Assembly: GCA_022710895.1 (NCBI GenBank)
Contig: JAKLGB010000008.1
Span: forward strand, 1-32,374
Origin: Bacillota bacterium
Lineage (GTDB): Bacteria > Bacillota_I > Bacilli_A > Izemoplasmatales > Hujiaoplasmataceae
Reading direction: 5' to 3'
Length of the DNA stretch: 32,374 nucleotides
Positions within the stretch are counted from its first letter, which is position 1; each line of letters begins with the position of its first letter. The position numbers and the translations under genes were made by a program. This document shows, in pieces, positions 152 through 27,897 of this stretch. The notes beneath the pieces were generated by a model. The model had not been told where the DNA came from. It made no database searches and was given only the letters and a program-made list of their open reading frames with translations.

Positions 152-1060
152 ATGTTGGAAGGCTTACTCAAAGAATACGTCTATTTCCTTCGCGTCACGA
201 AAAACCTCGCCAAAAACACCATCGTTTCTTATCAAAACGACCTCAAAGACTATTTGGCGTTTTTGGAGAGGAACTACCATATCTCCCGTCCCGACAAAAT
301 CGAACGGGCCCATCTGCTTCAATATGTCGCTCGTCTCAAACGGGAAGAAATGGCCCCGAAAAGCGTTGCCCGCAAACTCTCCGCGATCAAATCCTTCCAT
401 CGATATCTTCAAGTCGAAAAGATCATCGATGACAATGTCGTCGAATCGGTCCCGTTGCCCAAACCCCGGAAGCAACTGCCGGTCGTCCTCAATGTCGAAG
501 AGATCGACCGCCTTCTCGAAGCCGCGATCGGAACCGGAACGGTGTTGGAACTGCGCAATCGGGCGATGATCGAACTCGCCTACGGGTCCGGACTCCGCGT
601 ATCCGAACTGATCGATTTGGACATCGCCGATCTCCATCTGAACAACGGCCTTGTCAACGTCACCGGCAAAGGGTCAAAAGAACGGATCGTTCCCCTCGGG
701 GCCGATTCGATCGCCGCCTTGCGGAAGTACCTGACCGAGGCGCGACCGCTGATTCACCCGAAGGGAAAAGAAATTCTCTTTGTGAACAAAGACGGTGGCC
801 GCATCAGCCGCGTGGGTTTCTATAAAATCCTCCAAACCCTCGCCTTGAAAGCGGGAATCGATAAACCGATTTCTCCGCATACGCTCCGCCACTCGTTCGC
901 CACCCATTTGTTGGAGAACGGTGCCGATCTTCGGGCGGTGCAGGAGTTATTGGGACACGAAGACATCCTTACCACCGAAAATTACACCCACATCTCCAAA
1001 CGGCATCTTCAGGATGCTTATCAGGCCGCGCATCCGCGCGCCTTCGGAAAGAAGGAATGA
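152..1060 (+). CDS. xerD: Tyrosine recombinase XerD
   Basis: This 302-aa site-specific tyrosine recombinase should resolve chromosome dimers at dif together with XerC. The N-terminal SAM-like core-binding domain covers about residues 1-100, with KNTIVSYQNDLKDYLAFL typical of XerD. The catalytic domain follows with all active residues visible: Arg149 (GSGLRVSEL), Lys173 (GKGSKER), His243 and Arg246 (SPHTLRHSFATHLL), His269 (LLGHEDI) and the nucleophile Tyr278 (TTENYTH). The length matches the family (about 295-300 aa). The start follows the HemW-like stop by one base, and the stop overlaps a possible ATG of deoB. The xerD-deoB order is known from Bacillus (ripX-drm), which favours XerD over XerC or a phage integrase. 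Confidence 0.93.
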   Translation: MLEGLLKEYVYFLRVTKNLAKNTIVSYQNDLKDYLAFLERNYHISRPDKIERAHLLQYVARLKREEMAPKSVARKLSAIKSFHRYLQVEKIIDDNVVESVPLPKPRKQLPVVLNVEEIDRLLEAAIGTGTVLELRNRAMIELAYGSGLRVSELIDLDIADLHLNNGLVNVTGKGSKERIVPLGADSIAALRKYLTEARPLIHPKGKEILFVNKDGGRISRVGFYKILQTLALKAGIDKPISPHTLRHSFATHLLENGADLRAVQELLGHEDILTTENYTHISKRHLQDAYQAAHPRAFGKKE

Positions 1061-1062
1061 AC

Positions 1063-2241
1063 ATGAAATTCAAACGCGTTTTTCTCATCGTCATGGATAG
1101 CGTCGGCATCGGCGCTCTTCCCGACGCCGCCAAGTTCGGCGACGAAGACGCCAACACCCTTTCTCACATCGCTCAGGCCACCGGCGGAATCCATCTGCCG
1201 CTGCTCGGGTCCTTCGGTCTCGGAAATCTCACCGACATCCAGGGGGTCCCTCCCGTGGACAAACCGCGGGCGAACGTCGGAAAGATGAAAGAATTGTCCA
1301 ACGGCAAAGATACGATGACCGGTCATTGGGAAATCATGGGGTTACGTACCGCCATCCCCTTCCAGACCTTTACGGACACGGGATTTCCCGATGCCCTTTT
1401 GCAGGAACTGACGGCGAAAACCGGCCGAAAGATCATCGGCAACAAAGCCGCATCGGGAACGGAGATTCTCACGGAACTCGGCCCTCGGCAGATGCAAACC
1501 GGAGAACTGATCGTTTACACCTCCGCCGACTCCGTCCTGCAGATCGCCGCCCACGAGGAAATCATTCCCCTCAGCGAACTGTATTCGATCTGCAAAATCG
1601 CCCGGAAACTGACGCTTCGCGACGAATGGAAAGTCGGGCGCGTGATCGCTCGCCCCTATGTCGGGGATCCCGTCAACGGCTTCCGCCGAACGCCCAATCG
1701 CCACGACTACGCCCTCGATCCTTCCGGAAAGACCGTCCTCAATTGGCTGGCCGAGCACCAATACGACGTGATCTCGGTCGGAAAGATCCGCGACATCTTC
1801 AATGGTTCGGGGATCACCGACCATCACGGGATCGTATCCAATCATCACGGAATGGAAACGACGATGGCCATTGCCCAAGGTGATTTCACCGGTCTATGCT
1901 TCGTCAATCTCGTCGATTTTGACGCCATGTACGGCCATCGTCGCGATCCGCACGGCTATCGCGCGGCGTTGGAAGAGTTTGACCGCGATTTGGAAACCCT
2001 CCTGCCGGTCCTAAACGACGAGGACCTGTTGATCATCACCGCCGATCATGGAAACGACCCCACCTTCCGCGGCAGCGACCATACGCGCGAATATGTTCCT
2101 TTCCTGCTTTTCAACCGCTTGCTCAACGGGGGAATGCTTCCGGAATCGGAAACGTTCGCGGACATCGCCGCGACGATTGCGGAAAACTTCAACGTTCCCC
2201 AGACCAAATACGGGCAAAGCCGCCTGCGCATCCTCCGATAA
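1063..2241 (+). CDS. deoB: Phosphopentomutase DeoB
   Basis: DeoB interconverts ribose-1-P or deoxyribose-1-P and the 5-phosphates, and joins nucleoside phosphorolysis to the pentose and DeoC routes. It belongs to the alkaline-phosphatase superfamily and binds Mn. Visible motifs are the N-terminal metal site FLIVMDSVGIGALPDA (Asp12), the phospho-threonine loop GKDTMTGHWEIMG (about Thr84) and the C-terminal metal site TADHGNDPTFRGSDHTRE. Length is 392 aa, as expected. An ATG at 1057 overlaps the xerD stop. The ATG at 1063 is preferred because AAGGA (1052-1056) then sits 6 nt upstream, and the protein then begins like its homologues. It is the last gene of the hemW-xerD-deoB run and is followed directly by a hairpin terminator. 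Confidence 0.95.
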   Translation: MKFKRVFLIVMDSVGIGALPDAAKFGDEDANTLSHIAQATGGIHLPLLGSFGLGNLTDIQGVPPVDKPRANVGKMKELSNGKDTMTGHWEIMGLRTAIPFQTFTDTGFPDALLQELTAKTGRKIIGNKAASGTEILTELGPRQMQTGELIVYTSADSVLQIAAHEEIIPLSELYSICKIARKLTLRDEWKVGRVIARPYVGDPVNGFRRTPNRHDYALDPSGKTVLNWLAEHQYDVISVGKIRDIFNGSGITDHHGIVSNHHGMETTMAIAQGDFTGLCFVNLVDFDAMYGHRRDPHGYRAALEEFDRDLETLLPVLNDEDLLIITADHGNDPTFRGSDHTREYVPFLLFNRLLNGGMLPESETFADIAATIAENFNVPQTKYGQSRLRILR

Positions 2242-2247
2242 AAATAT

Positions 2248-2283
2248 GACACCCGGAAACGAATCCTTCCGGGTGTCTTTTTT
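2248..2283 (+). terminator. Rho-independent terminator of deoB, probably bidirectional
   Basis: A perfect 11-bp stem (2248-2258 with 2267-2277, GACACCCGGAA / TTCCGGGTGTC) closes an 8-nt loop and is followed by a T run at 2278-2283. It starts 6 nt after the deoB stop and lies between convergent genes. Read on the minus strand, the stem is followed by an imperfect U-rich run (ATATTTTTA), so it may also end the coiled-coil operon. Confidence 0.9.
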
Positions 2284-2285
2284 GA

Positions 2286-5231
2286 TTAGGCTTTTTTGGC
2301 GTCGATGCGGTATTTGCGGAATTTAGCATCGAGTTGTTTGAGCGAAACCCGCAACCGCTTGCGTTCTGCCCGTCGAATCGAACGGACGATCCGGCGGTAT
2401 CCCGAGTCGCGTTCGGCAAAGCGTTTGTATTCCCCGTATCCGTCGAGGACTTTGCGGAAGTCCTGGGATAGTTCTTCGATGGTTCCTTGCGAAGATTTCA
2501 GAGATTTGACGTATTCTTCGGTCAGCCGTTGGATCGTTTTTGCGGTGGCGTCGCGGTGGGCTTTGATCCGGGCTTCCCCGTCCTTTTCCGCTTGAACGGT
2601 TTGGAGTCGGAACTGCGATTCCATCGCGGAGATCCGGGTCTGAACGGCGGTCATTTCCACTTCGGTCTCCGATTCCATCATCGATTCTTCGCGACTTAAA
2701 GCCGCCAGACGGCGTTGATATTCAGCCTCGACGGCTTGGAGTCTTTGTTCGTATAGCAAACGATCCTGATCCCGGGCGGACATGACCTCCGCGATGCGGG
2801 CGGCGTATTCCGCGGAATGGTCTTTTTCGTCCTGGGCGAAGAAGATTTCCCGATACTTGGGAAGCAGGGCTTCGGCTTTGGCATCGAGTTCGGTTTCCGC
2901 CTCGCGCAACCGTTCTTCGTGGCGGGAATTGATGGAAGCCAGCGTATCGTAAAACGTCGGGTCGAGGATGTCCACGGCGTTTTCCATATACGGTTTGAGA
3001 GTTTCATATCGGGCTTTGGCCCGATCGTACAGCTCTTGGAATTCGGCGATCGTCACCTCGCGAAGGCGATCGGCATCGCTGACTGCGTTCTTCAATCTTC
3101 CGTCGAGGAGCGTCAATTCGCGACGGCTCTTGGCGATGATTTGGTCATCATCTTGCCGGCGGACGATGAGATTGATCCGCTGATCCCTCATCCGCCGTTC
3201 GCGGTCAAGGGAGAGGGAGAGGGATTTTTGTTCCCGCCGGTCGGAGGTTTCCTTCAGCCGACGGGCTTCGGCGTAGACTTTTGCCTGATAATCGTCTTCG
3301 ATCAATTTGATGTCGGAATCGTAGCGGGAAACGATTTGCCGGATTTGATCTTCATAGAATTGGCGTTCCTGATCGATGGTGGTCACGAGCGATTCCAAGC
3401 GGACCCGGTGTTCCGAATCGGCCAAGGTGATTTGTTCTTGGGCGAAACGCATCTGGTTCAGGTAGGTGGTGAGGATGAATTCATTGTTCACGCGAACCCC
3501 TTCGCCGACGCGGGATTTCTGCATCATCAGATAACTCTTTTCGTTTTCGAACATCGTCTCGAAATGCAGGGCTTTGATCCGATATTCTTTTAAGGCCAGT
3601 TCCAGTTCCGCTTTGGCTTCGACGACATAGATGTTGTGGGTCTCTTTTTCGCGGGAGTAACGGATCAAATCTTCGGAAATGGTGGACAGCCAGCGCCGGG
3701 AGGTGGCTCCGCTTTGGGAAAGATGGCCCAAATGTTCTTCGGTCGCCTTTTCCAAGCGTTCGACTTGATGGCGTTCGCGAAGGACGGCAAAACTCGACTT
3801 TGCAAACTGGCGGCGTTTTTCCAAAAGGAACAGATGGATTTTTTGCAATTCCGTCAACAATTCGCCTTCTTGGACGACGAGTTGTTTTTTGATGGCGTTC
3901 ATCATGATCAATTCCAGTTCGTTGATCTGGCTCTTGATCTTGGCGGATTGGATGTCGTAATCGATATTGGTTTTCAATTCCTTGTTCAGGCGGAGCAGGG
4001 AGATCCGGGTGAGTTCGTCTTTGATGATTTTGGAGGATTCGTCGCCGATCGTTTGGGCGAGGAAAGGATCGGATTTCATCACTTCGATATATTCGTTCAA
4101 ATAGAGTTCGAGACGGTTCATCGTCCTTAGCGATTGTTCTTCGGAGAGCCGAAGGATGGCTTTTTGCCGCCGAGCTTGATGCTTGAGCATTTTTGTCGCC
4201 CGAACCTCGGCTTGGCGGACGTCCCGCTGCCAGCGGGAAATCTTCTGGTACGTCTGCAATAAACGACCTTCATCGTGAGAACGGGTAGCTTCCGCGTTCA
4301 GAAGATCCCGCTTGTATTGGGATTTGTATTTGACGGGATCGTCGAAGAGATCAAACTTGTTGATGATCTGATAGGAACGGCTTTGCAGCAGGCGGTTCAG
4401 AACTTTTCGGTACAGGGCAGCGTAGTCGTCCTCTATGGTTTTCTGAATTTTGAGATTAAGGGCGTTGGTATGGGCGCAGAAGGCGTTGAATTGGTTGATT
4501 TTGTCGCTGACAAGGGCTTGAATTTCCACGGAGGTGGGATCCGATTCCGCAGAGAAGCTCAACTGGTTGTCGGCGTAATAAGAGGCTTCCTTTTCAAAGA
4601 AGGTTTCGATATCGTTGACTTTTCGATTCTTCTGACGAATGATGTTGGAAATATTGTCGTCCATCGACTTGATCTGGGTGTCCAGTTGGACAAACAAATC
4701 ATAGATCTCGTTTTGATGCCGTTCGAGGATTTGCTGGAAGGCTTGGCTCTTTTCCAAGAAATAGTCGAAGTACTCTTCTGAGGAAAGGATGTTATTGAGA
4801 TAGGTTCGGGAGTAGAAGGCCAGAAAATCGTATTTGATCTGCAAGATCGCTTTGGACAGATAATCGAGCGAGGAAAGCGTCTCGGGAAAGCGGAGCCGGT
4901 CGTGATGAAGGATGTCTTCGTTGGTGCCATGGACCAGAGTTTCGGTGTCGCTGATGATTCGCGAACGGTCGACGATGATTTCTTCTTCATGGTAGAAGAT
5001 GGAATCGGCGATCTTTTCGGCATCGCCCTTCAGGTTTCTCAGGCGTTTTTCCGCTTCGTTCAAGTTGTTGATGGAAATCTGGCGGTGGGTTTTGGCATGG
5101 TCGGAAACCTTGCGGAAAAAATCCTCGTAGAGGGCGATTTCGCGGGCATAGCCCTGCTTAATCTCGCTTTGAAGGATTGCTTTTCCGGATTGACGGGGAT
5201 CCGCCCCGACGGTTTTCTTGACTTCGGCCAT
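2286..5231 (-). CDS. Giant coiled-coil protein of unknown function (981 aa)
   Basis: I do not recognise a family. The protein is 981 aa, soluble in appearance, with no signal peptide, no membrane segment and no Walker A/B pair. It is dominated by Glu, Lys, Arg, Gln and Leu in heptad-like arrangement. Only eight prolines occur (12, 116, 232, 299, 389, 747, 758, 791), leaving residues 390-746 (357 residues) proline-free, as expected for a long continuous coiled coil. There is one cysteine (252). The last 37 residues are strongly basic (Arg/Lys-rich from 946), a possible nucleic-acid, membrane or partner contact. GGAG (plus 5241-5244) sits 9 nt before the ATG. It lies 16 nt behind the 1157-aa coiled-coil gene, so the two form an operon. 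A structural, scaffold or cytoskeletal role is inference. Confidence 0.9.
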   Translation of the reverse strand: MAEVKKTVGADPRQSGKAILQSEIKQGYAREIALYEDFFRKVSDHAKTHRQISINNLNEAEKRLRNLKGDAEKIADSIFYHEEEIIVDRSRIISDTETLVHGTNEDILHHDRLRFPETLSSLDYLSKAILQIKYDFLAFYSRTYLNNILSSEEYFDYFLEKSQAFQQILERHQNEIYDLFVQLDTQIKSMDDNISNIIRQKNRKVNDIETFFEKEASYYADNQLSFSAESDPTSVEIQALVSDKINQFNAFCAHTNALNLKIQKTIEDDYAALYRKVLNRLLQSRSYQIINKFDLFDDPVKYKSQYKRDLLNAEATRSHDEGRLLQTYQKISRWQRDVRQAEVRATKMLKHQARRQKAILRLSEEQSLRTMNRLELYLNEYIEVMKSDPFLAQTIGDESSKIIKDELTRISLLRLNKELKTNIDYDIQSAKIKSQINELELIMMNAIKKQLVVQEGELLTELQKIHLFLLEKRRQFAKSSFAVLRERHQVERLEKATEEHLGHLSQSGATSRRWLSTISEDLIRYSREKETHNIYVVEAKAELELALKEYRIKALHFETMFENEKSYLMMQKSRVGEGVRVNNEFILTTYLNQMRFAQEQITLADSEHRVRLESLVTTIDQERQFYEDQIRQIVSRYDSDIKLIEDDYQAKVYAEARRLKETSDRREQKSLSLSLDRERRMRDQRINLIVRRQDDDQIIAKSRRELTLLDGRLKNAVSDADRLREVTIAEFQELYDRAKARYETLKPYMENAVDILDPTFYDTLASINSRHEERLREAETELDAKAEALLPKYREIFFAQDEKDHSAEYAARIAEVMSARDQDRLLYEQRLQAVEAEYQRRLAALSREESMMESETEVEMTAVQTRISAMESQFRLQTVQAEKDGEARIKAHRDATAKTIQRLTEEYVKSLKSSQGTIEELSQDFRKVLDGYGEYKRFAERDSGYRRIVRSIRRAERKRLRVSLKQLDAKFRKYRIDAKKA

Positions 5232-5247
5232 GGGTCATCGCTCCGAT

Positions 5248-8200
5248 TCAGGCGTTAAGGATGCGTTTTTGATTTTCTTCGGACTCGGAAACCTGCTTGC
5301 GCAGGGATTCGGCGGTCGCATTGGATTTGGCGAGAGTGTCTTGGACGACCTCGTCGGTTTTGATCTTGAGGCGGTCGTTGATGATCAATACTTTCTCGAA
5401 GGGGTGAAGAATAAGAGCGTCATTGAACAGGATTCCCGCCGATTCCAAGCGACTCTTGACAAAGCGGTCGAATTCCCCAGCATAGGCGGTGTTGGCGACT
5501 TGCCACTGTTTCAAATAGGACGATTGAGCTTCGCCGATTTTCTGATAAAGTCCGACATAATCCTGCGGAAGGCGTTCGCGGATAGCGGACATCTGCGATA
5601 GAAAAGCGGGGCGGGAAACGAATTTTTCTTCTTCCAGCCGGGCCAGTTCCTTTTCCAAGGCGGATCTGCGTTCGGCGATGAATTGAGCTTTTTCGGCTTC
5701 CAAAGCCGCGAGTTTCTTTTCGTTTTGCGCGGGAACCGTTTCAACGGATCGATGCAATGAGGCCAGCGAAGCCGTCCGGTTTTGATCCCCTCGGGACAAA
5801 TCGGTCACCAAGCGAGCATTGGCGGTGAGGGTTTCCGCAGAAGATTTCTTCTTGAGGGTTTCATAACCTTCGATGTGACGCCGATAAGTGGTCTCAACTT
5901 GTTTTTTTGCGCGCAGGGAAGCGGCTTTCGCATCGCGGGTCCGGGACTCCGCCCCGGCCCGGTTTTTGGCGTCCTCTTTTCGAAGTTCTTTGTCCATGAA
6001 CCGCATGGCGGATTCTTGTTCGCGCAATCCGCGGACATAGGTTTGGTTCAACAGGAAAACTCGATCCGCGATCGTCGTTTCGACGGTCTTGGCGGCGAAG
6101 GCGACTTGAGGAATGGCAATTTCGGCAGGCGTTTGTTCCTTGGCAGCCCGAACGATTTCTCGATCAAATTCCTCCTCGATGATCCGCTCCTTTGCCAACG
6201 ATTCGTCGCGGAATTTCTTGATCGTCATCACATCGCCGGAAATAAGGATTTCTTCCAATTCGTCGAGGGCGGAGCGGACATGATCCAAAAAGTTCTCGGA
6301 CCACAGGATCGTTTCCACGTAAAAGGCATAAAGGGTTTTTCGCAAGCCTTTGACGGAATGGACGTTCATCAAACTGTCTTTTTCGGCTTCTGTTGTCAAA
6401 ATTGCGATTTTGCGGAAATCTTCGTCGAGCCAAGAGGTGGCTTTATCCCACAACGCGGTGCTCTTTTCTTTAGACACCAGGGCGGAAATCGTGTCTTTGG
6501 TGGCGGAAACGGCAGATAGAATATCATAACGGTAGAAGTGCTCCAAAGAAAGCGCTTCGGCCTGAAGCGGGGCATTCTCGTCGATCAAGGAAACGAGAAG
6601 ATGTTTAAGGGCAACCAGAGGTTTTCCCATTTGGTTTTCGATGTTCTTGCGGGCGGTGAACAAAGCGTGATCGAAATATTCGATCGCCCGTCGATGCGGT
6701 TCGGTCTGTCGATCGGTGCGGAATCGAAGTTGGTCGATCAAGCTTCGACGTTGTTCTTCAAGCAGGTAAGCATAGGCGCGGGGCGCCGAGGATTGCAGCA
6801 GATAGTCGTGAGCCCGGAGCGTCTGGTCTTTATGAAGATCGATGAGGTGCTGGGCATGATGGACATACTCCACGACAAATTCCGATCCGGCGGATTTATT
6901 GGCCTCATACCGACCCAGTTCGCGCCGGATGGCTTCCCCCAAAAGACCGCGTTGACGGACGACTTCAAAGGTCTCCTGCTCCAAGGCACGTTTTTCTTCC
7001 AAGGCCACCATGGCGAGGTCCCGGCGGTATTTGGCTTGGATCAAGGCCAGTTCCTTGTCGTAGGCTTGATCGTGGATGTCTTTTTCGAGGTTGTTCAACA
7101 GCCGGTCATGTTTGGAAAGAGCTTCCTCCGAAGCTTTCTGTTTGTTTTTTTCGGTGACTTCCCGTTGCGCCACCAGCAAGGCGGCTTCCGCATCCGAAGA
7201 AAGTTGATGGGTCTTTTGGAGAAAACCGTGCTGATGTTCGGCGATGGCCATGTCGGTTTCCAACTGAGCCAAGTATTTTTTGTAATCGCCGGTAATGTCG
7301 GCGTTTTCCATCGCCTTTTTCACAGAGGCGATTTCCAAACGGTTGTTGGATTCCAAAGAGACGATGTCTTTGCTCAATCGGTCGATGTTGGTGATCAAAT
7401 CGGTCATTTTGTTGGTAACGTTATTCAAGGTCACCAAGCAGTTGATCTTATAATCTTCAAAGGTTTTGGCACTGGATTTTACATAGTCCACAAATGTCTG
7501 CGAAATCGTTTGGTTGAAACGGATAAAATCCGAAAGCATGTTATCGATTTCGTCCATCGATTCGGATACGTAGAAGGCGAAATTGCTGTAAAGGTTGATG
7601 GCATCCTGAAAATATTGGGCAGGCATCGAATAGGCCAGTTTGATTTCTTCGACCCGACGGAACGAATCGACCTTGATCTTGCTGATTTCGTTTTGGTATT
7701 TGGATATAAGGAGGTCGGTCAGCTTTTGGTTCCGGTTGAGAAGATAACGGCTTTTCGCTTGGACGATGCCGTACTGCATAATGTATTTTTGCGTTAGGCG
7801 GCCATCGTTTTGAGCATCCGCTTCGATGATTTTTTTGCCGATGATCATCGAGGATTTGAGGAAATCCTCTTGGACGAGTTTTTCGAAGGCTACTTTCTTC
7901 TGGTTGATCGCGGCAATTTGACGGACATATTGGTCGATGAGGTTCTGGTTGATTTCCGAATAGGGAATCTGCCGGATTTCGCTCAATTCCGCGATCCGGT
8001 TCTTTTTGTTGGCGTAGCCTAGAGTCGTGGTTTTGAACAGTGCGGTCATCTTGTTTTTTGCATCGCGAAGCTTTTCCAAAATTTGCAGGATGGCGGCATT
8101 CATGAATTTGGCATCGTTGAAGGCCTTTTCGTTGAGTTGCCGGGTCATTTCCTGCAAAGAGTTTTTGGTTTTTTCCATCGTCCAAAGCAAAAGGTCGTAT

Positions 8201-8721
8201 TGCCGGTTATTCATCAGGGAGTATTCTTCACGGACGGATTCGAATTCCGCATTTTTCTGATCGACGAATTTTTGATGGATTTCGAATTCTTTATTGATCG
8301 CGGCTTCAGAGTCACGGCACATCGACTGGTACGTTTCCAGCGCGGCCCGTTTCAGGTCTTCGAAATCGGCCGCAATCTTTGAAAAAGCCTCGTCTTCGCG
8401 GTTCTTTTTGGCTTGAAGTTGATCGCGATGGGCCAGAAAATCCTCATCCAACGCCTGGAACAAACCCGCATATTCCTGGTCGATGACTTCGAGAACCTTC
8501 TGGAAATCCCCTTCGTACCGTTGATAGGTTTTCTGATTTTCCAAAGCGAAAAGACCGAAGTTTTCTTCGATCTTTTGAACTTCCGCTTGGTAGTTTTGTT
8601 CAATTTCCCGGGCTTGATCGTCAAGGGCCTTCAAGTGGTCCTCGTACAATCCGCGGTCGGGAATCGTGGTCTCGAGAGAAAAGAAAGCAGTGGGCTTTTT
8701 TTCGCGTTTTCCCTCTTTCAT
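5248..8721 (-). CDS. Giant coiled-coil protein of unknown function (1157 aa)
   Basis: This is the first gene of a two-gene minus-strand operon and has no family I can name. It has 1157 aa, no signal peptide, no transmembrane segment and no P-loop. Residues 25-250 and 368-646 (the latter 279 residues without proline) look like continuous coiled coil. A more mixed, possibly globular helical region spans about 640-880, with prolines at 647, 675, 701, 718, 865 and 871. A second coiled stretch follows from about 885 to 1035, with an Ala/Lys/Glu-rich part near 1000-1035. A short hydrophobic segment near 1095-1120 (ILFNDALILHPFEKVLIIND) may be a small folded tail. The SD AGGGGG (plus 8730-8735) lies 8 nt before the ATG. 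It shows no obvious sequence repeat shared with its neighbour. Confidence 0.9.
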   Translation of the reverse strand: MKEGKREKKPTAFFSLETTIPDRGLYEDHLKALDDQAREIEQNYQAEVQKIEENFGLFALENQKTYQRYEGDFQKVLEVIDQEYAGLFQALDEDFLAHRDQLQAKKNREDEAFSKIAADFEDLKRAALETYQSMCRDSEAAINKEFEIHQKFVDQKNAEFESVREEYSLMNNRQYDLLLWTMEKTKNSLQEMTRQLNEKAFNDAKFMNAAILQILEKLRDAKNKMTALFKTTTLGYANKKNRIAELSEIRQIPYSEINQNLIDQYVRQIAAINQKKVAFEKLVQEDFLKSSMIIGKKIIEADAQNDGRLTQKYIMQYGIVQAKSRYLLNRNQKLTDLLISKYQNEISKIKVDSFRRVEEIKLAYSMPAQYFQDAINLYSNFAFYVSESMDEIDNMLSDFIRFNQTISQTFVDYVKSSAKTFEDYKINCLVTLNNVTNKMTDLITNIDRLSKDIVSLESNNRLEIASVKKAMENADITGDYKKYLAQLETDMAIAEHQHGFLQKTHQLSSDAEAALLVAQREVTEKNKQKASEEALSKHDRLLNNLEKDIHDQAYDKELALIQAKYRRDLAMVALEEKRALEQETFEVVRQRGLLGEAIRRELGRYEANKSAGSEFVVEYVHHAQHLIDLHKDQTLRAHDYLLQSSAPRAYAYLLEEQRRSLIDQLRFRTDRQTEPHRRAIEYFDHALFTARKNIENQMGKPLVALKHLLVSLIDENAPLQAEALSLEHFYRYDILSAVSATKDTISALVSKEKSTALWDKATSWLDEDFRKIAILTTEAEKDSLMNVHSVKGLRKTLYAFYVETILWSENFLDHVRSALDELEEILISGDVMTIKKFRDESLAKERIIEEEFDREIVRAAKEQTPAEIAIPQVAFAAKTVETTIADRVFLLNQTYVRGLREQESAMRFMDKELRKEDAKNRAGAESRTRDAKAASLRAKKQVETTYRRHIEGYETLKKKSSAETLTANARLVTDLSRGDQNRTASLASLHRSVETVPAQNEKKLAALEAEKAQFIAERRSALEKELARLEEEKFVSRPAFLSQMSAIRERLPQDYVGLYQKIGEAQSSYLKQWQVANTAYAGEFDRFVKSRLESAGILFNDALILHPFEKVLIINDRLKIKTDEVVQDTLAKSNATAESLRKQVSESEENQKRILNA

Positions 8722-8876: not shown

Positions 8877-8905
8877 ATTATAAACGAACACCCGGCAGAT
8901 TTCAA
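8877..8905 (-). promoter_or_regulatory. SigA-type promoter of the coiled-coil operon
   Basis: On the minus strand TTGAAA (plus 8900-8905) and TATAAT (plus 8877-8882) are separated by exactly 17 bp. The -10 is perfect and the -35 matches four of six bases of the consensus TTGACA plus conserved TTG. It is the only strong candidate between the divergent ruvB gene and the coiled-coil genes, and it implies a well-expressed operon. Confidence 0.8.
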
Positions 8906-8955: not shown

Positions 8956-8974
8956 AAATAATGAGGTGGACTCC

Positions 8975-9979
8975 ATGGACAATCGGGTTCTCAGCAACAA
9001 CCTGTTGGTCGACGAGGAAATCGAAGTCTCGTTGCGCCCGCAGAAATTTTCCGAATTTATCGGACAGACCAACGTCAAAGAAATGATGCAGATCGCCGTC
9101 GGAGCGGCCAAGAAACGGGAGGAATCGCTCGATCACGTTCTGTTTTACGGGCCCCCCGGTTTGGGAAAGACGACGCTCGCCCAAGTGATTGCCAACGAAC
9201 TCGGGGTGGCGATCAAAATTGTCAGCGGACCGACGGTGGAACGCACCGGCGATTTGGCGGCGATTTTGACCTCGCTCGAACCCGGTGACGTGCTTTTTAT
9301 CGATGAAATTCATCGACTCCCGAAAATCGTCGAAGAAATCCTTTATTCCTCGATGGAGGATTTTGTCATCGACATCGTTGTCGGCAAGGACAACGGTGCC
9401 AAATCGATTCGGGTCGATCTTCCCCCTTTCACCCTCATCGGAGCCACGACCCGTTTCGGTGACTTGACCGGTCCGCTGCGGGACCGGTTCGGAATCGTCC
9501 ATAAATTGGAATTTTATACCGATCAGGATTTGGAGACCATTTGCCGCCGCACCGCCTCGATCTATGCTTGTGAAATCGAAGCCCCTGCGGTCGTGGAACT
9601 CGCCAAGCGCAGTCGGGGAACTCCCCGCATCGTCAACCGCCTGTTTCGGCGCGTCCGCGACTATGCGGATATTCTTTCCGACGGCGTCATCACCCTCGAC
9701 ATTACCCAAACCGCCTTGGATAAATTGAAAATCGATGCTTCGGGATTGGATCGGAAGGATCGGGAATACTTGGCCGTCATCATCGAGAAATACCACGGTG
9801 GACCGGTGGGCTTGGAAACGATCGCCACCTCCATCAGCGAAGACCCCCTGACTCTTGAAGATGTTTATGAACCCTACTTGATTCAAAAAGGGTTTATCAG
9901 TCGAACCCCTCGGGGACGGGTGGCCACGGAATTGGCCTACCAGCACTTAAAGAAAAGTTATCAAGGAACGTTGTTTTAA
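8975..9979 (+). CDS. ruvB: Holliday junction branch-migration helicase RuvB
   Basis: RuvB is the hexameric AAA+ motor that drives branch migration with RuvA at Holliday junctions. Over 334 aa the motifs are clear: Walker [10 protein letters not shown] (59-67), Walker [10 protein letters not shown] (106-114), sensor 1 LIGATTR (about 154-160), the arginine-finger region GPLRDRFG (about 166-173), and a C-terminal winged helix ending in [16 protein letters not shown] at 8966 is in frame, but it lies inside the Shine-Dalgarno GAGGTG (8963-8968), which is placed 6 nt before the ATG at 8975, so the ATG is the start. ruvA, normally just upstream, is absent here. queA starts 1 nt after the stop, keeping the usual ruvB-queA order. 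Confidence 0.97.
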
Positions 9980-14208: not shown

Positions 14209-14237
14209 TTGTTTTTTGCGGTTTTCGGTGATACAAT
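14209..14237 (+). promoter_or_regulatory. Promoter of the mgtE-yhbY-surE-yggS-sepF-yggT operon
   Basis: TTGTTT (14209-14214) and an extended -10 TG-n-TACAAT (14229-14237) are spaced 17 bp apart. The start lies near 14244, only about 20 nt before the mgtE ATG, so there is no room for an M-box magnesium riboswitch. Confidence 0.75.
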
Positions 14238-14262
14238 GAGAAAAGAAACGGAGGGATCGTCC

Positions 14263-15663
14263 ATGGCAGATTTATGGGAAAACCAATCGACCTATGTCGC
14301 GGAAATCATCGGCATCCTGCAAAGCGATTCTTCCGCGGAAACCAAGCGGGATCGGCTGGATGAGTATCATGAACACGAACTGAGCGAAGCTTTCCTGGCG
14401 ATGACCCGGGACGACCGACGCAAGTTCTCCCATTTGTTCCCCGCTCCGTTCCTGGCGGAAATATTCGCGGAATTCGATCCCGAAACCGCCGTTCCCCTCC
14501 TTCGGGAAATGGGCGGCGGAGAAGCCGGTCGCATCCTCAACGAAATGGAAAACGACGACCTGGTCGACATTCTCCAAGCCTTTGAAACCCGGGAGGAACG
14601 CATCACCTTCCTGGCCCCGATCCGCGTCGAAAAACGGAATGCGATCAAAACCCTGATCGATTACGACGAAGACGTCGTCGGTTCGATCATGAACACCGCC
14701 TTCGTCGCCTTGGAAGTCGGGCTTACGGTCAAAATCGCGATTCGCCGGTTGGTGGAAGCCGCGCCCCAGACCGAATTCATCAACAACATCTATTTCCTTC
14801 AAGATCGCAAGTTGGTCGGGGTCCTGTCTTTGCGCGAACTCATCAGCGCCGGGAATCAGCCCGATCGACTCGTCGACGATTTGATGACCGTCAATCTGAT
14901 TACCGTCCTTCCCACCACTCCGAAAGCGGAAGCGATCCGCGTGATGCGAGACTACGACTTTTTTCTGCTTCCCGTCGTTGACGACGAAGACCGCCTTTTG
15001 GGTTTGGTATCCTTCGACGACATGGCCGAAGCCATTGACGAAGAAAGCGAAGCCGACTACGCCCAGCTCGCCGCCATCTCCGACGTGCGCAGCGAAGACA
15101 ACGACAATGTCTTCCGGACGGTCCGAAAACGGCTTCCCTGGTTGACGATCCTGCTGTTTCTGGACGTTTTCACGTCCTCGATCGTCGCCGGTTTCGAAGA
15201 AGTGCTTCAAGCCCTGCCCGTGTTGGCTTTGTTCATGCCGCTCATTTTGAATATGGCTGGTAACACCGGAACTCAAAGTCTGGGCGTTACGATCGGCCTG
15301 TTTGCCCGAGACCAGTTGTCCGGGCGGAAAGAAAGCGCACGGCATCTCGGACGGGAATTGCTTACCGGACTGATCAACGGATTGGCCATCGGAGGGCTGT
15401 TGTTCGCCGGGGTCATCGCCTTGAAATCCGTCCAAGGATCCGGTTTCGGAGAATCCGTTCGATTTGCCGCGGTGATTGCCCTTTCGCTGACGGTGGCCTT
15501 GGTCGCCTCCACCTTTTTCGGTGCGGCCGTCCCCTTGTTTTTCCGCCTCCTTCACATTGACCCGGCGGTGGCGTCCGGGCCATTCATCACCACGATTGTC
15601 GATATTTTGGCGCTCCTCATCTATTTCGCTCTGGCGATTTGGATGCTTGGGGCCTGGATTTAG
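14263..15663 (+). CDS. mgtE: Magnesium transporter MgtE (copy 1)
   Basis: MgtE forms a homodimeric Mg2+ channel in the membrane. The 466 residues show the cytosolic N domain (about 1-125, EMENDDLVDILQ), two CBS domains (about 135-260; GSIMNTAFVAL, LVGVLSLREL, DDLMTVNLITVLP), a plug helix, and five hydrophobic helices from about 292 to 462. The pore signature MAGNTGTQS (331-339) and the last-helix motif DPAVASGPFITTIVD with the pore Asp (447) are intact. The frame extends upstream, but GGAGGG (14250-14255) and the promoter fix the start at ATG 14263. The mgtE copy 2 starts 12 nt after the stop. The two proteins share architecture but are clearly diverged. Confidence 0.95.
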   Translation: MADLWENQSTYVAEIIGILQSDSSAETKRDRLDEYHEHELSEAFLAMTRDDRRKFSHLFPAPFLAEIFAEFDPETAVPLLREMGGGEAGRILNEMENDDLVDILQAFETREERITFLAPIRVEKRNAIKTLIDYDEDVVGSIMNTAFVALEVGLTVKIAIRRLVEAAPQTEFINNIYFLQDRKLVGVLSLRELISAGNQPDRLVDDLMTVNLITVLPTTPKAEAIRVMRDYDFFLLPVVDDEDRLLGLVSFDDMAEAIDEESEADYAQLAAISDVRSEDNDNVFRTVRKRLPWLTILLFLDVFTSSIVAGFEEVLQALPVLALFMPLILNMAGNTGTQSLGVTIGLFARDQLSGRKESARHLGRELLTGLINGLAIGGLLFAGVIALKSVQGSGFGESVRFAAVIALSLTVALVASTFFGAAVPLFFRLLHIDPAVASGPFITTIVDILALLIYFALAIWMLGAWI

Positions 15664-15675
15664 GGGGTGAAGTCG

Positions 15676-17115
15676 ATGGAAGACCGCAAACCCAACGAAG
15701 AAACCGAACGCGACTTTCTCGCCGAAATCCGAATTCTTTTCGAAGAACACCGCGGTGACGGTGATTTCATTCTTCAACTGGAAGAGTACCACCCCTTTGA
15801 CATCGCCAGGGCGCTGGTCGAGACCGTTCCAGAAATCCGGAAAGACGTTTTGAATAAACTACCACCCGCTTTTTCCGCCAATCTGTTCGAGACGTTGGAT
15901 GAAGAGGAAACAATCGAAATCGTCAAAGAATTGCCTTCGACTCTGGCTGTGTCGATCATCGATAAGATGGAAACCGACGATGCCCTCGACTTGATGCAAT
16001 ACCTTGAAGACGAAGAGGAAGACACCACCTTCGTCAATCTCCTCAGCCCGAAAAAACGGGAAGAACTGAAGAAGTTCTGGCACTACACCGATGACCAGAT
16101 CGGGTCGGTGATGTCCACGAACTACATCGAAATCCCCGCCTCGATGTCCGTGAAGGACGCCATGCGAAAGGTGACCGCGGTCGCCGGGGATACCGACTAT
16201 ATTTCCATTCTATATGCAGTTGACAAACAGCGGTTGGTCGGAACGTTGAAACTCAAGGAACTGATCGTGGCTCGCGCTTCCCAAACGATTACCGATGTGA
16301 TGAATCGGCGCTTCGCCTCCGCCCGTCCCGAAGAAGACAAAGAAACGGTAGCCCGTCGGATGCAGGACTACGGCGAATCCTCGATGCCGATTCTCGACGA
16401 AACCGGGAAATTGCTCGGAATTCTGACTCATGACGTGATGATCGACATCATTTCCGCAGTTCAAAGCGAAGACTACGGCCGTCTGGCCGGCTTGGGTTCC
16501 GCCGACTTGGAAACCCAAACCGAAACCACCTTTTCCGCCGTAAAGAGTCGTTTGCCTTGGTTGGCCATGCTTTTGGGCCTGAGTTTCCTTTCTTCCTTGG
16601 TCCTAACGCTTTTCTCCGGAGCGTTTCCCGATGCCCCGGGAGCGGGTCTGCTGGCGGCGAACCTGGCGGTGTACCTGCCCTTGATCTTGGACATGTCGGG
16701 CAACACCGGAACTCAAAGTTTGGCGGTCATGATCCGATTCCTGATTGCCAATCCCGACTCCATGGAACAAAAGACCGTTCGCGCCCATCTGCGCCGCGAA
16801 TGGTTGTCGGGGTTGATTCAAGCCTTGCTTCTGGGCGCCCTGACTTTCGGTATCGTCTGCCTCACGGAAGCTTTGCCGGCGGGGATGCGACTTGATTCGC
16901 GGACACTGGTGTTCGCGACCGTCACGGCTTTCGCGATCTTCATCGCCTTGGCCGTCGCCAACCTGTTGGGAGCCTTGATTCCCCTCCTCATGGCCAAACT
17001 GAAGTTTGACCCCGCCGTGGCCTCCGGCCCCTTCATCACCACGGTCGCCGATCTCGTTTCCTTGACTTTGTACTATTCCATCAGCCTGATCTTTTTGCTG
17101 AATTTCTATCTCTGA
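15676..17115 (+). CDS. mgtE: Magnesium transporter MgtE (copy 2)
   Basis: This second MgtE paralogue has 479 aa. It repeats the full layout: N domain with METDDALDLMQYL, CBS pair (IGSVMSTNYIEIP, RLVGTLKLKELI, ITDVMNRRF, LLGILTHDVMIDII), then five membrane helices with MSGNTGTQSLAVMIRF and DPAVASGPFITTVADLV. The pore Asp is present, so both copies look functional. A GTG at 15667 is in frame but forms part of the SD GGGGGTG (15663-15669). ATG 15676 is the likely start. The two products could form separate homodimers or a heterodimer, which the sequence cannot decide. yhbY starts 13 nt downstream, so the pair heads an operon of mostly cytosolic housekeeping genes. Confidence 0.95.
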   Translation: MEDRKPNEETERDFLAEIRILFEEHRGDGDFILQLEEYHPFDIARALVETVPEIRKDVLNKLPPAFSANLFETLDEEETIEIVKELPSTLAVSIIDKMETDDALDLMQYLEDEEEDTTFVNLLSPKKREELKKFWHYTDDQIGSVMSTNYIEIPASMSVKDAMRKVTAVAGDTDYISILYAVDKQRLVGTLKLKELIVARASQTITDVMNRRFASARPEEDKETVARRMQDYGESSMPILDETGKLLGILTHDVMIDIISAVQSEDYGRLAGLGSADLETQTETTFSAVKSRLPWLAMLLGLSFLSSLVLTLFSGAFPDAPGAGLLAANLAVYLPLILDMSGNTGTQSLAVMIRFLIANPDSMEQKTVRAHLRREWLSGLIQALLLGALTFGIVCLTEALPAGMRLDSRTLVFATVTAFAIFIALAVANLLGALIPLLMAKLKFDPAVASGPFITTVADLVSLTLYYSISLIFLLNFYL

Positions 17116-25342: not shown

Positions 25343-26617
25343 ATGGAACATCGCCGTTTTTCCGGCGTCGGATACACCCTTCAATGCATCCGCACCGCCA
25401 AATTCAAAACGTTTTTGATCGCGCTCCGCTTTGCGGGCGCTTTTTCTCATGAGACGCTGAACGTTCGCGCAATCCTTCCGGAATTGTTGCTGGACGGGAC
25501 GCGGAAAAGTCCCTCCCGCGAAGCCTTGCAACAGCGAATGGATGGGTTATACGGACTGTCCGTAACCCCTTCGACCGACAAAGTCGGACGCGCAAGCGTC
25601 ATCGGTTTCGATCTGAAAGCCGTGGACGGACGCTATCTTCCCGATGGATTCCCGACGCTGATCCCGGCGCTCGATTTGTTGCAGGAGATCATCTATCAGC
25701 CGAAACAATTCCGGGGCAACTTCCGGAAAAAGAACATTCAGGAAGAAGTCCGACTTCTCCGTGAAGAATTCGAAGCCGAATACGCGGATAAACCGGAGTG
25801 GGCTTATCAACGATTCATGAAGCTGATGTTCGCCGGGGAATTGCATCAATTCCGCGCCAAGGGCGATCCCGAAACCCTCGGTGATCTCCGCGCGGAAGAT
25901 TGTTTGCGAGCCTACCAAGATCTTTTGGCAAACGATCAGGTCACGATCCTCGCCGTCGGTGATTTCGATCCCGAAGTCTTGGCTTCGGCCATCGCCTCCC
26001 GGTTCCGGTTCGGCGGAAAAGGCGGGGGAGCCCCCTTGCTTGATTCCGAAACCGCGCCTCTGCGGGAACCGCGGTTGATCCGCGAATCCGGCGACCTCAG
26101 TCAAGCTCGCATCCATCTCGGATTTCGCTGGCCGATCCGGTTCGGAGATTCCGATTTTTATGCCGCCACGTTGGCCAACGCCGTCCTTGGAGAGTTTGAT
26201 CATTCGCGACTTTTCCGAAAAATCCGCGAAGAGCATTCGCTTTGTTATTTCATTCAATCCCAATACGACAGTAACAAAGGCTGTCTCAGCGTTCATGCCG
26301 GCACCGATCCCGAACAGGTAGATCGCGTCTTGGCTTTGATTGCAGAAAACCTCGAAGGCCTGCGCCGAGGAGATCTGTCGGACGAAGAACTGGCGTTGGC
26401 GAAAGAATCGGTGGCTAAACGCATTCGCCAAAACGCCGATTCCCCCGAGTCCTTGGCGATGCTGGATTTTCTGTATCATCGTCTTCTGGACCGTGAGTAT
26501 TCTCCCGAAGCGTCGTTGGCCCGGTTGGCCGCCGTGCAAAAGGAAGACGTCCTCGCCGCCCTCGGCCGCTTGCGCCCGGATCTGACCTACGTCGCCGAAG
26601 GGAGGGTTTCCCCATGA
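25343..26617 (+). CDS. M16-family peptidase-like protein without active site (YmfF-like)
   Basis: The 424-aa protein has the two-lobe M16 layout, with the second lobe carrying the ARIHLGFRWP and LFRKIREEHSLCYFIQS pattern. The expected HxxEH zinc motif is absent: the matching region reads ILPELLLDGTRKS. It is therefore probably the non-catalytic partner of the next protein, as in YmfF/YmfH pairs of Bacillota. AAAGGA is 8 nt before the ATG. The stop overlaps the next ATG, so the two products would be made in equal amounts. The substrate is unknown. It follows deoD by 26 nt with no visible promoter. Confidence 0.88.
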   Translation: MEHRRFSGVGYTLQCIRTAKFKTFLIALRFAGAFSHETLNVRAILPELLLDGTRKSPSREALQQRMDGLYGLSVTPSTDKVGRASVIGFDLKAVDGRYLPDGFPTLIPALDLLQEIIYQPKQFRGNFRKKNIQEEVRLLREEFEAEYADKPEWAYQRFMKLMFAGELHQFRAKGDPETLGDLRAEDCLRAYQDLLANDQVTILAVGDFDPEVLASAIASRFRFGGKGGGAPLLDSETAPLREPRLIRESGDLSQARIHLGFRWPIRFGDSDFYAATLANAVLGEFDHSRLFRKIREEHSLCYFIQSQYDSNKGCLSVHAGTDPEQVDRVLALIAENLEGLRRGDLSDEELALAKESVAKRIRQNADSPESLAMLDFLYHRLLDREYSPEASLARLAAVQKEDVLAALGRLRPDLTYVAEGRVSP

Positions 26618-27897
26618 TGAACCTGCGTCCCGAGCCGATGGTCCGGGAAACGATGGCCGAAGCCGTTCTTCCCAACGGAATGCGTCTCTATGTGCTCCCG
26701 AAACCCGGGTTTGCCCGCACCCAAGCGATTTTATCCGTTGGGTTCGGAGGAGTCGATCGCGAAGTTTTGGTCAAAGACCGCAGCGAGACCGTCGTTTTTC
26801 CCGAAGGAACCGCTCATTTTCTGGAACACATGCTGTTTGAATCGGAAGGCGAAAATCTCTCCGACCGTTTTTCCGCTTGCGGCGCTTCCGTCAATGCCTA
26901 CACCGCTCCGAAACGCACCGCCTACCATTTTTCGACCACCAACGGGTGGGAGATTCCCCTCAATCTCCTGCTCGATCTGGTTTTTCGGCCGCGGTTTGCG
27001 ACCGAACAAGTGAATAAGGAACGTCAGGTCATTGCCAAAGAAATCCGCATGTACCAAGACGACCTGGACCAAATGCTTTATCAGGACTGCATGGCCTCCT
27101 TATTCAGCGGCCATCCCGTCCGGGGAGACATCGCCGGGACCGCCGAATCGATTGCCCGGATCGATCTTTCCGTGCTGAAAGAGGCTTATGAACTGTTTTA
27201 TCATCCCGCGCGCTGTCAACTCGTCGTGGTCGGTGACCTCGACCCCGATCAGGTATGGGCGGTTCTAAACGCGCACCCTGCCTGTGCGGATGCCGTTTCC
27301 GACCGGCTCGCCGGCCGGATCCGTCAAGCCGAACCCCCGGTGGTCCACCGTCGTTCTTTGAACCGGCGCCGCGATGTCAAAAGCGATTTGCTGATGATGG
27401 GAATCAAACTGGACAAACGAGTTCCCCAATCGCCGTTGGACGACGATTTGGCGGAAATCCGTTTGGCATTCCTGTTGGATAATGTTTTTGGTCGGACGGC
27501 ACCGCTGTACCGCGAATGGATGGACAAACGCTGGATCAACGACACTTTCGAAACCTCGGTCACCGTCGAGGATGATTACGGAACGGTACTTCTTTTCACC
27601 GAGACCAAGAAACCCCGGGCCACCGAGGCTGCCTTCCGCTCCGCCCTCCGGAACATCCAATCGCTGTTCACCGATGAGAATCGCTTTGAAATCGCCCGAC
27701 GAAAAATGGTGGGGAACCTTCTGCAAACCTTCGATCACATCGGAGCTCTGGGCGGGTTTCTGACCGACTACTACAGTTCCGGCGTCGATCCTTTCGCCTT
27801 GTTGCGCCGCGTCGGGACCCTGACGTTTGCGGAGATCCGCGATCTCGCCCCGGTCTTTTCCGAAGAGGCGATCGCCGTGGTCCGATACCATCCGTGA
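26614..27897 (+). CDS. M16-family zinc peptidase (YmfH-like)
   Basis: This is the catalytic member of the M16 pair, 427 aa. The inverted zinc motif HFLEH is intact (His68, Glu71, His72) and the third ligand is expected near Glu143 in VIAKEIRMYQDD. The region GASVNAYTAPKRTAYHFSTT is typical of YmfH/PqqL-like peptidases. The second lobe has RRKMVGNLLQTFDHIG and ends in AVVRYHP. The start ATG overlaps the preceding stop (ATGATGA), so ATG 26617 is an alternative. A terminator follows 14 nt after the stop. The name pqqL or albF is not justified, since no PQQ or bacteriocin gene is near. Confidence 0.92.
   Translation: MMNLRPEPMVRETMAEAVLPNGMRLYVLPKPGFARTQAILSVGFGGVDREVLVKDRSETVVFPEGTAHFLEHMLFESEGENLSDRFSACGASVNAYTAPKRTAYHFSTTNGWEIPLNLLLDLVFRPRFATEQVNKERQVIAKEIRMYQDDLDQMLYQDCMASLFSGHPVRGDIAGTAESIARIDLSVLKEAYELFYHPARCQLVVVGDLDPDQVWAVLNAHPACADAVSDRLAGRIRQAEPPVVHRRSLNRRRDVKSDLLMMGIKLDKRVPQSPLDDDLAEIRLAFLLDNVFGRTAPLYREWMDKRWINDTFETSVTVEDDYGTVLLFTETKKPRATEAAFRSALRNIQSLFTDENRFEIARRKMVGNLLQTFDHIGALGGFLTDYYSSGVDPFALLRRVGTLTFAEIRDLAPVFSEEAIAVVRYHP

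Follow-up and report, generated by a model that had tools for sequence, protein, structure and literature searches.

A conserved pair of giant helical proteins beside ruvB as a candidate structural scaffold in the wall-less Izemoplasmatales

What do two very large proteins of no recognised family do beside ruvB in a bacterium that may have no cell wall? The question is raised by a stretch of DNA of 32,374 nt (the window; contig JAKLGB010000008.1), which is part of a 1.43-Mb assembly that is 81% complete. Two adjacent genes, here termed A and B, are located on the minus strand (Table 1), with A preceding B and a gap of 16 nt between them. A first-pass annotation, made from the sequence alone, had given their coordinates, strand and lengths (1157 and 981 aa) exactly, and the longest proline-free runs comprise 279 residues in A and 357 residues in B, as it had claimed. 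B is single-copy in its own genome. The near-consensus promoter described in the same annotation was also recovered. The promoter-like site upstream of A scores 11/12, which was reached by 1/100 shuffles of the upstream region, and in the majority of relatives from the window's own family a similar box (TTGAwT-17-TATAAT) precedes A by 22–31 nt. No clear conservation of such a box upstream of A was observed in family f3.

Table 1. Features of the A-B locus and its conserved flanks in the window.
Feature	Position (nt)	Strand	Description
deoB	1057..2241	+	phosphopentomutase; conserved flank
Terminator-like hairpin	2248..2277	.	bidirectional; between B and deoB
Gene B	2286..5231	-	981 aa, all-helical; downstream gene, convergent with deoB
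Most conserved segment of B	~3340..3610	-	about residues 541-630; coordinates approximate
Gene A	5248..8721	-	1157 aa, all-helical; upstream operon gene, divergent from ruvB
Promoter-like site	8877..8905	-	sigma-70-type, TTGAAA-17-TATAAT; upstream of A
ruvB	8966..9979	+	conserved divergent flank

Both proteins had been called unrecognised, and profile searches against Pfam, NCBIfam, PHROG and PADLOC likewise gave no family above cut-off for A or B. A search of 32 B and 31 A homologues against Pfam at 0.001 returned nothing beyond three scattered coil matches. The Walker A motif is absent from A and B of the window, no ATPase match was found in Pfam or NCBIfam, and neither protein matches an actin-fold NTPase of the MreB/actin-like cytoskeleton. 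No 19-residue segment of A or B resembles a transmembrane helix (maxima of 0.67 and 1.33, compared with 2.46 for MgtE). These profile, Walker A and hydrophobicity checks agree with the earlier statement that ATPase, membrane and secretion motifs are missing. SMC, Rad50, MukB, tape-measure proteins and DivIVA, all of which had been set aside on first reading, do not fit either: no ATPase head and no DivIVA profile were detected, no PHROG match to a phage structural or tape-measure protein was obtained, and the flanks of the pair are conserved housekeeping genes. No published account of the A-B pair was found in a literature search whose scope took in few subscription papers.

The pair is conserved nearly throughout the order. 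A immediately precedes B, in the same orientation, in 46 of the 49 inspected loci, which represent all three Izemoplasmatales families, with a median gap of ~13 nt; the adjacency seen in the window thus extends to related genomes. Two of the three exceptions stop at a contig edge (L080 and L184), and in the third (L062, 63% GC) the ORF caller picked an antisense ORF over B. A single-sequence search retrieved B homologues in 65 of 101 relatives and A homologues in 32. In families f1 and f3 the arrangement is xerD-deoB, the pair on the opposite strand and ruvB-queA, and the pair is next to deoB in these two families. A first tally had scored family f2 as devoid of the pair. This was rejected: gene position, together with profile comparisons run against reversed controls, shows that the pair is present but diverged; A (1108–1129 aa) and B (931–971 aa) of f2 lie beside ruvB or three genes away and match the two families over their whole length (profile-profile scores of 125 for A and 175 for B, compared with 43 and 33 for the reversed-profile controls).

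The lengths of both proteins are nearly constant (about 1110–1210 aa for A and about 920–990 aa for B), whereas identity between families is 10–20%; compared with the window, family f3 retains 9–12% in A and 13–18% in B. Judged from the sequences, such fast drift with barely changing length is the pattern of structural proteins. The dN/dS ratio is 0.04–0.08 for A and B, compared with 0.015–0.03 for ruvB and deoB. The most conserved segment of B carries the invariant polar residues K548, E562, E564, Q571, R574, T589, Q593, Q600, E607 and R611 in addition to F585 and F596. Within the order, GC content of the locus spans 25–63% (53.6% in the window and 37.8% in the same-genus relative L061), and conservation across this range rules out a compositional artefact; chance or antisense ORFs were rejected on the same ground. 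Absence from close relatives together with decay, which the first-pass annotation had named as contrary evidence, was not observed: decay was rejected for the window, and homologues are under purifying selection order-wide. Constant lengths, conserved place and low dN/dS indicate that A and B are real, strongly selected genes. In one genome (G055, L183:10680-12788), a single 702-aa helical gene replaces the pair in the deoB-ruvB interval, so having two genes is not an absolute requirement. In another (G032, L077:5634-9152), A is spread over several frames, which reflects assembly frameshift errors or recent decay.

Two large, family-less genes with poorly conserved sequences might be structural genes derived from a mobile element or a phage, or components of a defence system. 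This origin is highly improbable and is largely refuted by vertical synteny, because the pair occupies one locus with the same flanks order-wide, is under strong purifying selection and lacks PHROG and PADLOC matches.

The flank of the pair was compared with the proposal that A and B replace ruvA upstream of ruvB. This proposal does not hold: ruvA is present in 84 of the 101 genomes searched and in most relatives is located elsewhere than beside ruvB; it has been relocated rather than replaced. It was not found in the window's own, 81% complete assembly. Throughout Izemoplasmatales, ruvA lies apart from ruvB, and it is adjacent to ruvB in Acholeplasmataceae and other outgroups. On the far side of ruvB-queA-tgt, ftsZ is only a few genes away in f1 and f2, and the long helical protein EzrA regulates FtsZ in walled relatives. 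A and B could accordingly be imagined as a division scaffold that associates with FtsZ and positions or supports wall-free constriction. We regard this as rather improbable, since no EzrA, DivIVA, GpsB or ZapA profile matches A or B, and since ftsZ was not seen in the inspected ~10-kb flanks of f3 and Acholeplasmataceae. Adjacency is weak evidence.

AlphaFold2 predicts helices only in both proteins, with the longest single helices spanning 337 residues in A and 273 residues in B. The input alignments comprised 13 (A) and 16 (B) sequences, and confidence is modest (pLDDT of 68.8 for A and 73.4 for B; pTM of 0.28 and 0.35), which makes the models unusable for the arrangement of the helices. The top Foldseek matches are other long helices only (SMC arms and PrgA; TM about 0.1), and those to SMC arms have a TM of 0.06–0.16 and an rmsd mostly >60. 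The hydrophobic period is 3.60–3.62 in A, in B and in an Acholeplasma gene described below, in all families, whereas the same computation yields 3.50 for SMC arms (n = 40) and 3.54 for those of JetC. Some segments of B are near 3.5 (for example residues 281–406 and 421–546), and the heptad dominance of crescentin, FilP and intermediate-filament-like proteins was not observed in A or B. A and B are therefore not canonical heptad coiled coils, and the period speaks against a two-stranded coiled-coil filament of the classic kind; of the initial description as giant coiled-coil proteins, the size and the predicted all-helical character stand, and the classic heptad repeat does not. A period of 3.6 is compatible with straight helical bundles that have little twist, or with mixed 7/11 repeats.

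The same period would also fit amphipathic helices that lie on a surface, although the charge distribution gives no support. A and B might in that case form a peripheral membrane coat, in which long apolipoprotein-like helices lie on the membrane and stabilise the bilayer directly. The period recurs in all families, 2 of 31 A members weakly match Pfam apolipoprotein A1/A4/E, and the A profile matches apolipoprotein A-IV in the PDB with an E of 0.0005. However, packing in helical bundles yields the same period, the apolipoprotein matches fall within coil noise, and the charge round the helix resembles that of SMC arms. A class-A amphipathic membrane helix was rejected because no distinctive charge pattern was observed, and the coat as a whole appears quite unlikely.

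A giant gene at the corresponding place was also observed in Acholeplasmataceae and in family f16. This single proline-poor gene encodes 1000–1240 aa, mostly near 1200 aa, and is divergent beside an intact ruvA-ruvB-queA. It resembles the pair in chromosomal place, divergent orientation, low proline content, a period of 3.62 and purifying selection. In contrast to Izemoplasmatales, there is one gene rather than two, and ruvA is still in place. Its match to A profiles (124 compared with 90 for the reversed control overall; 46 compared with 37 and 31 compared with 33 by family) is not consistently above the controls, and the gene is therefore treated as a positional analogue. One of the genomes that carry it is, we presume, A. 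laidlawii PG-8A. Families f8, f9, f21 and others have no giant gene at the ruvB place. A and B were also compared as possible paralogues: their profile similarity to each other is 83 in f3 (control 36), 36 in f1 (control 33) and 23 in f2 (control 23), and so does not exceed the control in every sub-family; the raw hhalign value of 97% for this comparison is untrustworthy because A compared with its own reversed sequence already scores 128.

The cells in which the pair occurs are probably devoid of murein. Among the 101 genomes searched, MurC was found above cut-off in no Izemoplasmatales genome and only in six outgroup genomes, as would be expected of wall-less cells. Xianfuyuplasma coldseepsis zrk13, a cultured member, is coccoid and wall-less by TEM (PMC8397711), and the early suggestion that the lineage may lack a wall is in keeping with both observations. 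One relative, putatively this strain, carries the pair at 1808881-1815441. A canonical MreB of about 330 aa was found in some f3 genomes and in a few of f1, and the remaining genomes lack one; other MreB hits are 600-residue proteins that resemble DnaK. Because MreB is patchy and the pair is close to universal, the common skeleton cannot be MreB. Several f3 genomes contain three tandem MreB paralogues (e.g. G041:C1:439746-442783). Two further gene sets of the window are recorded here: two tandem MgtE magnesium-transporter genes (14209-17115), which are in tandem in several relatives too, and a YfmF/YfmH pair (25343-27897), which is linked in Bacillus to the 5-aminopentanol modification of EF-P and is kept in this wall-less lineage.

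Canonical SMC was found above cut-off in no Izemoplasmatales genome, except for a probable contaminant in G068, and in none of the Acholeplasmataceae searched; most other families of the class possess it. Only in families without canonical SMC were the pair or its positional analogue seen, and the neighbouring ruvB and xerD are linked to recombination and replication. A and B might accordingly be a nucleoid scaffold, in which helical rods bridge or tether DNA after the loss of the SMC condensin. This appears unlikely, because neither protein has an ATPase head, a hinge or a DNA-binding domain, the Foldseek matches to SMC arms reflect long helices only, and ruvB has no giant neighbour in other SMC-less families (f9, f5 and f7). 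Some SMC-less genomes (L283, L284 and L286), the putative A. laidlawii genome among them, encode JetA, a DUF4194/MksE-like protein and a JetC-like ATPase of the Wadjet/MksBEF type. SMC may have been superseded by a condensin of the JetABC type, whose presence in some of the same genomes weakens SMC replacement as the leading model for the pair.

The reading that we favour, which we hold tentatively and at somewhat less than even confidence, is that A and B together make up, as its two subunits, a structural scaffold inside the cell that is specific to this wall-less order, the Izemoplasmatales. It is suggested by the near order-wide occurrence of the pair, the A-B adjacency, the conserved length, the low dN/dS, the helices-only models and the lack of ATPase and transmembrane signals, together with the missing MurC, the wall-less Xianfuyuplasma cells (PMC8397711) and the restriction of MreB to some genomes. 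The two genes would be co-transcribed and would yield elongated helical rods in the cytosol; by joining each other, or by packing side by side, these rods would build up filaments, straight helical bundles or a mesh beneath the membrane. Such a scaffold would lend shape or mechanical stability to an osmotically fragile, murein-free cell. A filament or cell-shape role, which had been raised on first reading, is thus one that we infer rather than derive from an interpretable fold match. A wider and, on balance, doubtful reading is that straight, untwisted, non-heptad giant helical proteins constitute an undescribed class of skeleton, which would work mechanically without murein and usually without MreB and would take in Acholeplasmataceae by convergence or deep ancestry. 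The integrity and shape of wall-less bacteria is an open question outside a few mycoplasmas. For its study, a near-universal single-locus pair offers two candidate proteins in an order that is free-living, wall-less and represented in culture, and the positional analogue is located in the laboratory-tractable Acholeplasma.

Three known systems invite comparison with A and B. The arms of SMC, MukB and Rad50 are likewise long helical rods and provide the top Foldseek matches, but A and B have neither the ATPase head nor the hinge, and differ in period (3.60–3.62 compared with 3.50), with a TM of about 0.1. Apolipoprotein-like helical proteins have a period near 3.6–3.67 and give weak profile matches to A. 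These matches are below curated cut-offs, the class-A charge pattern is absent, and A and B are far longer. The third comparison is with HMW2 and MPN474/MG328 of Mycoplasma, cytoskeletal coiled-coil proteins of which the known ones belong to the terminal organelle. A and B are set apart from them by description, with no Pfam or NCBIfam match and a different genomic context, and share with them the character of giant, helical, cytosolic proteins of wall-less bacteria.
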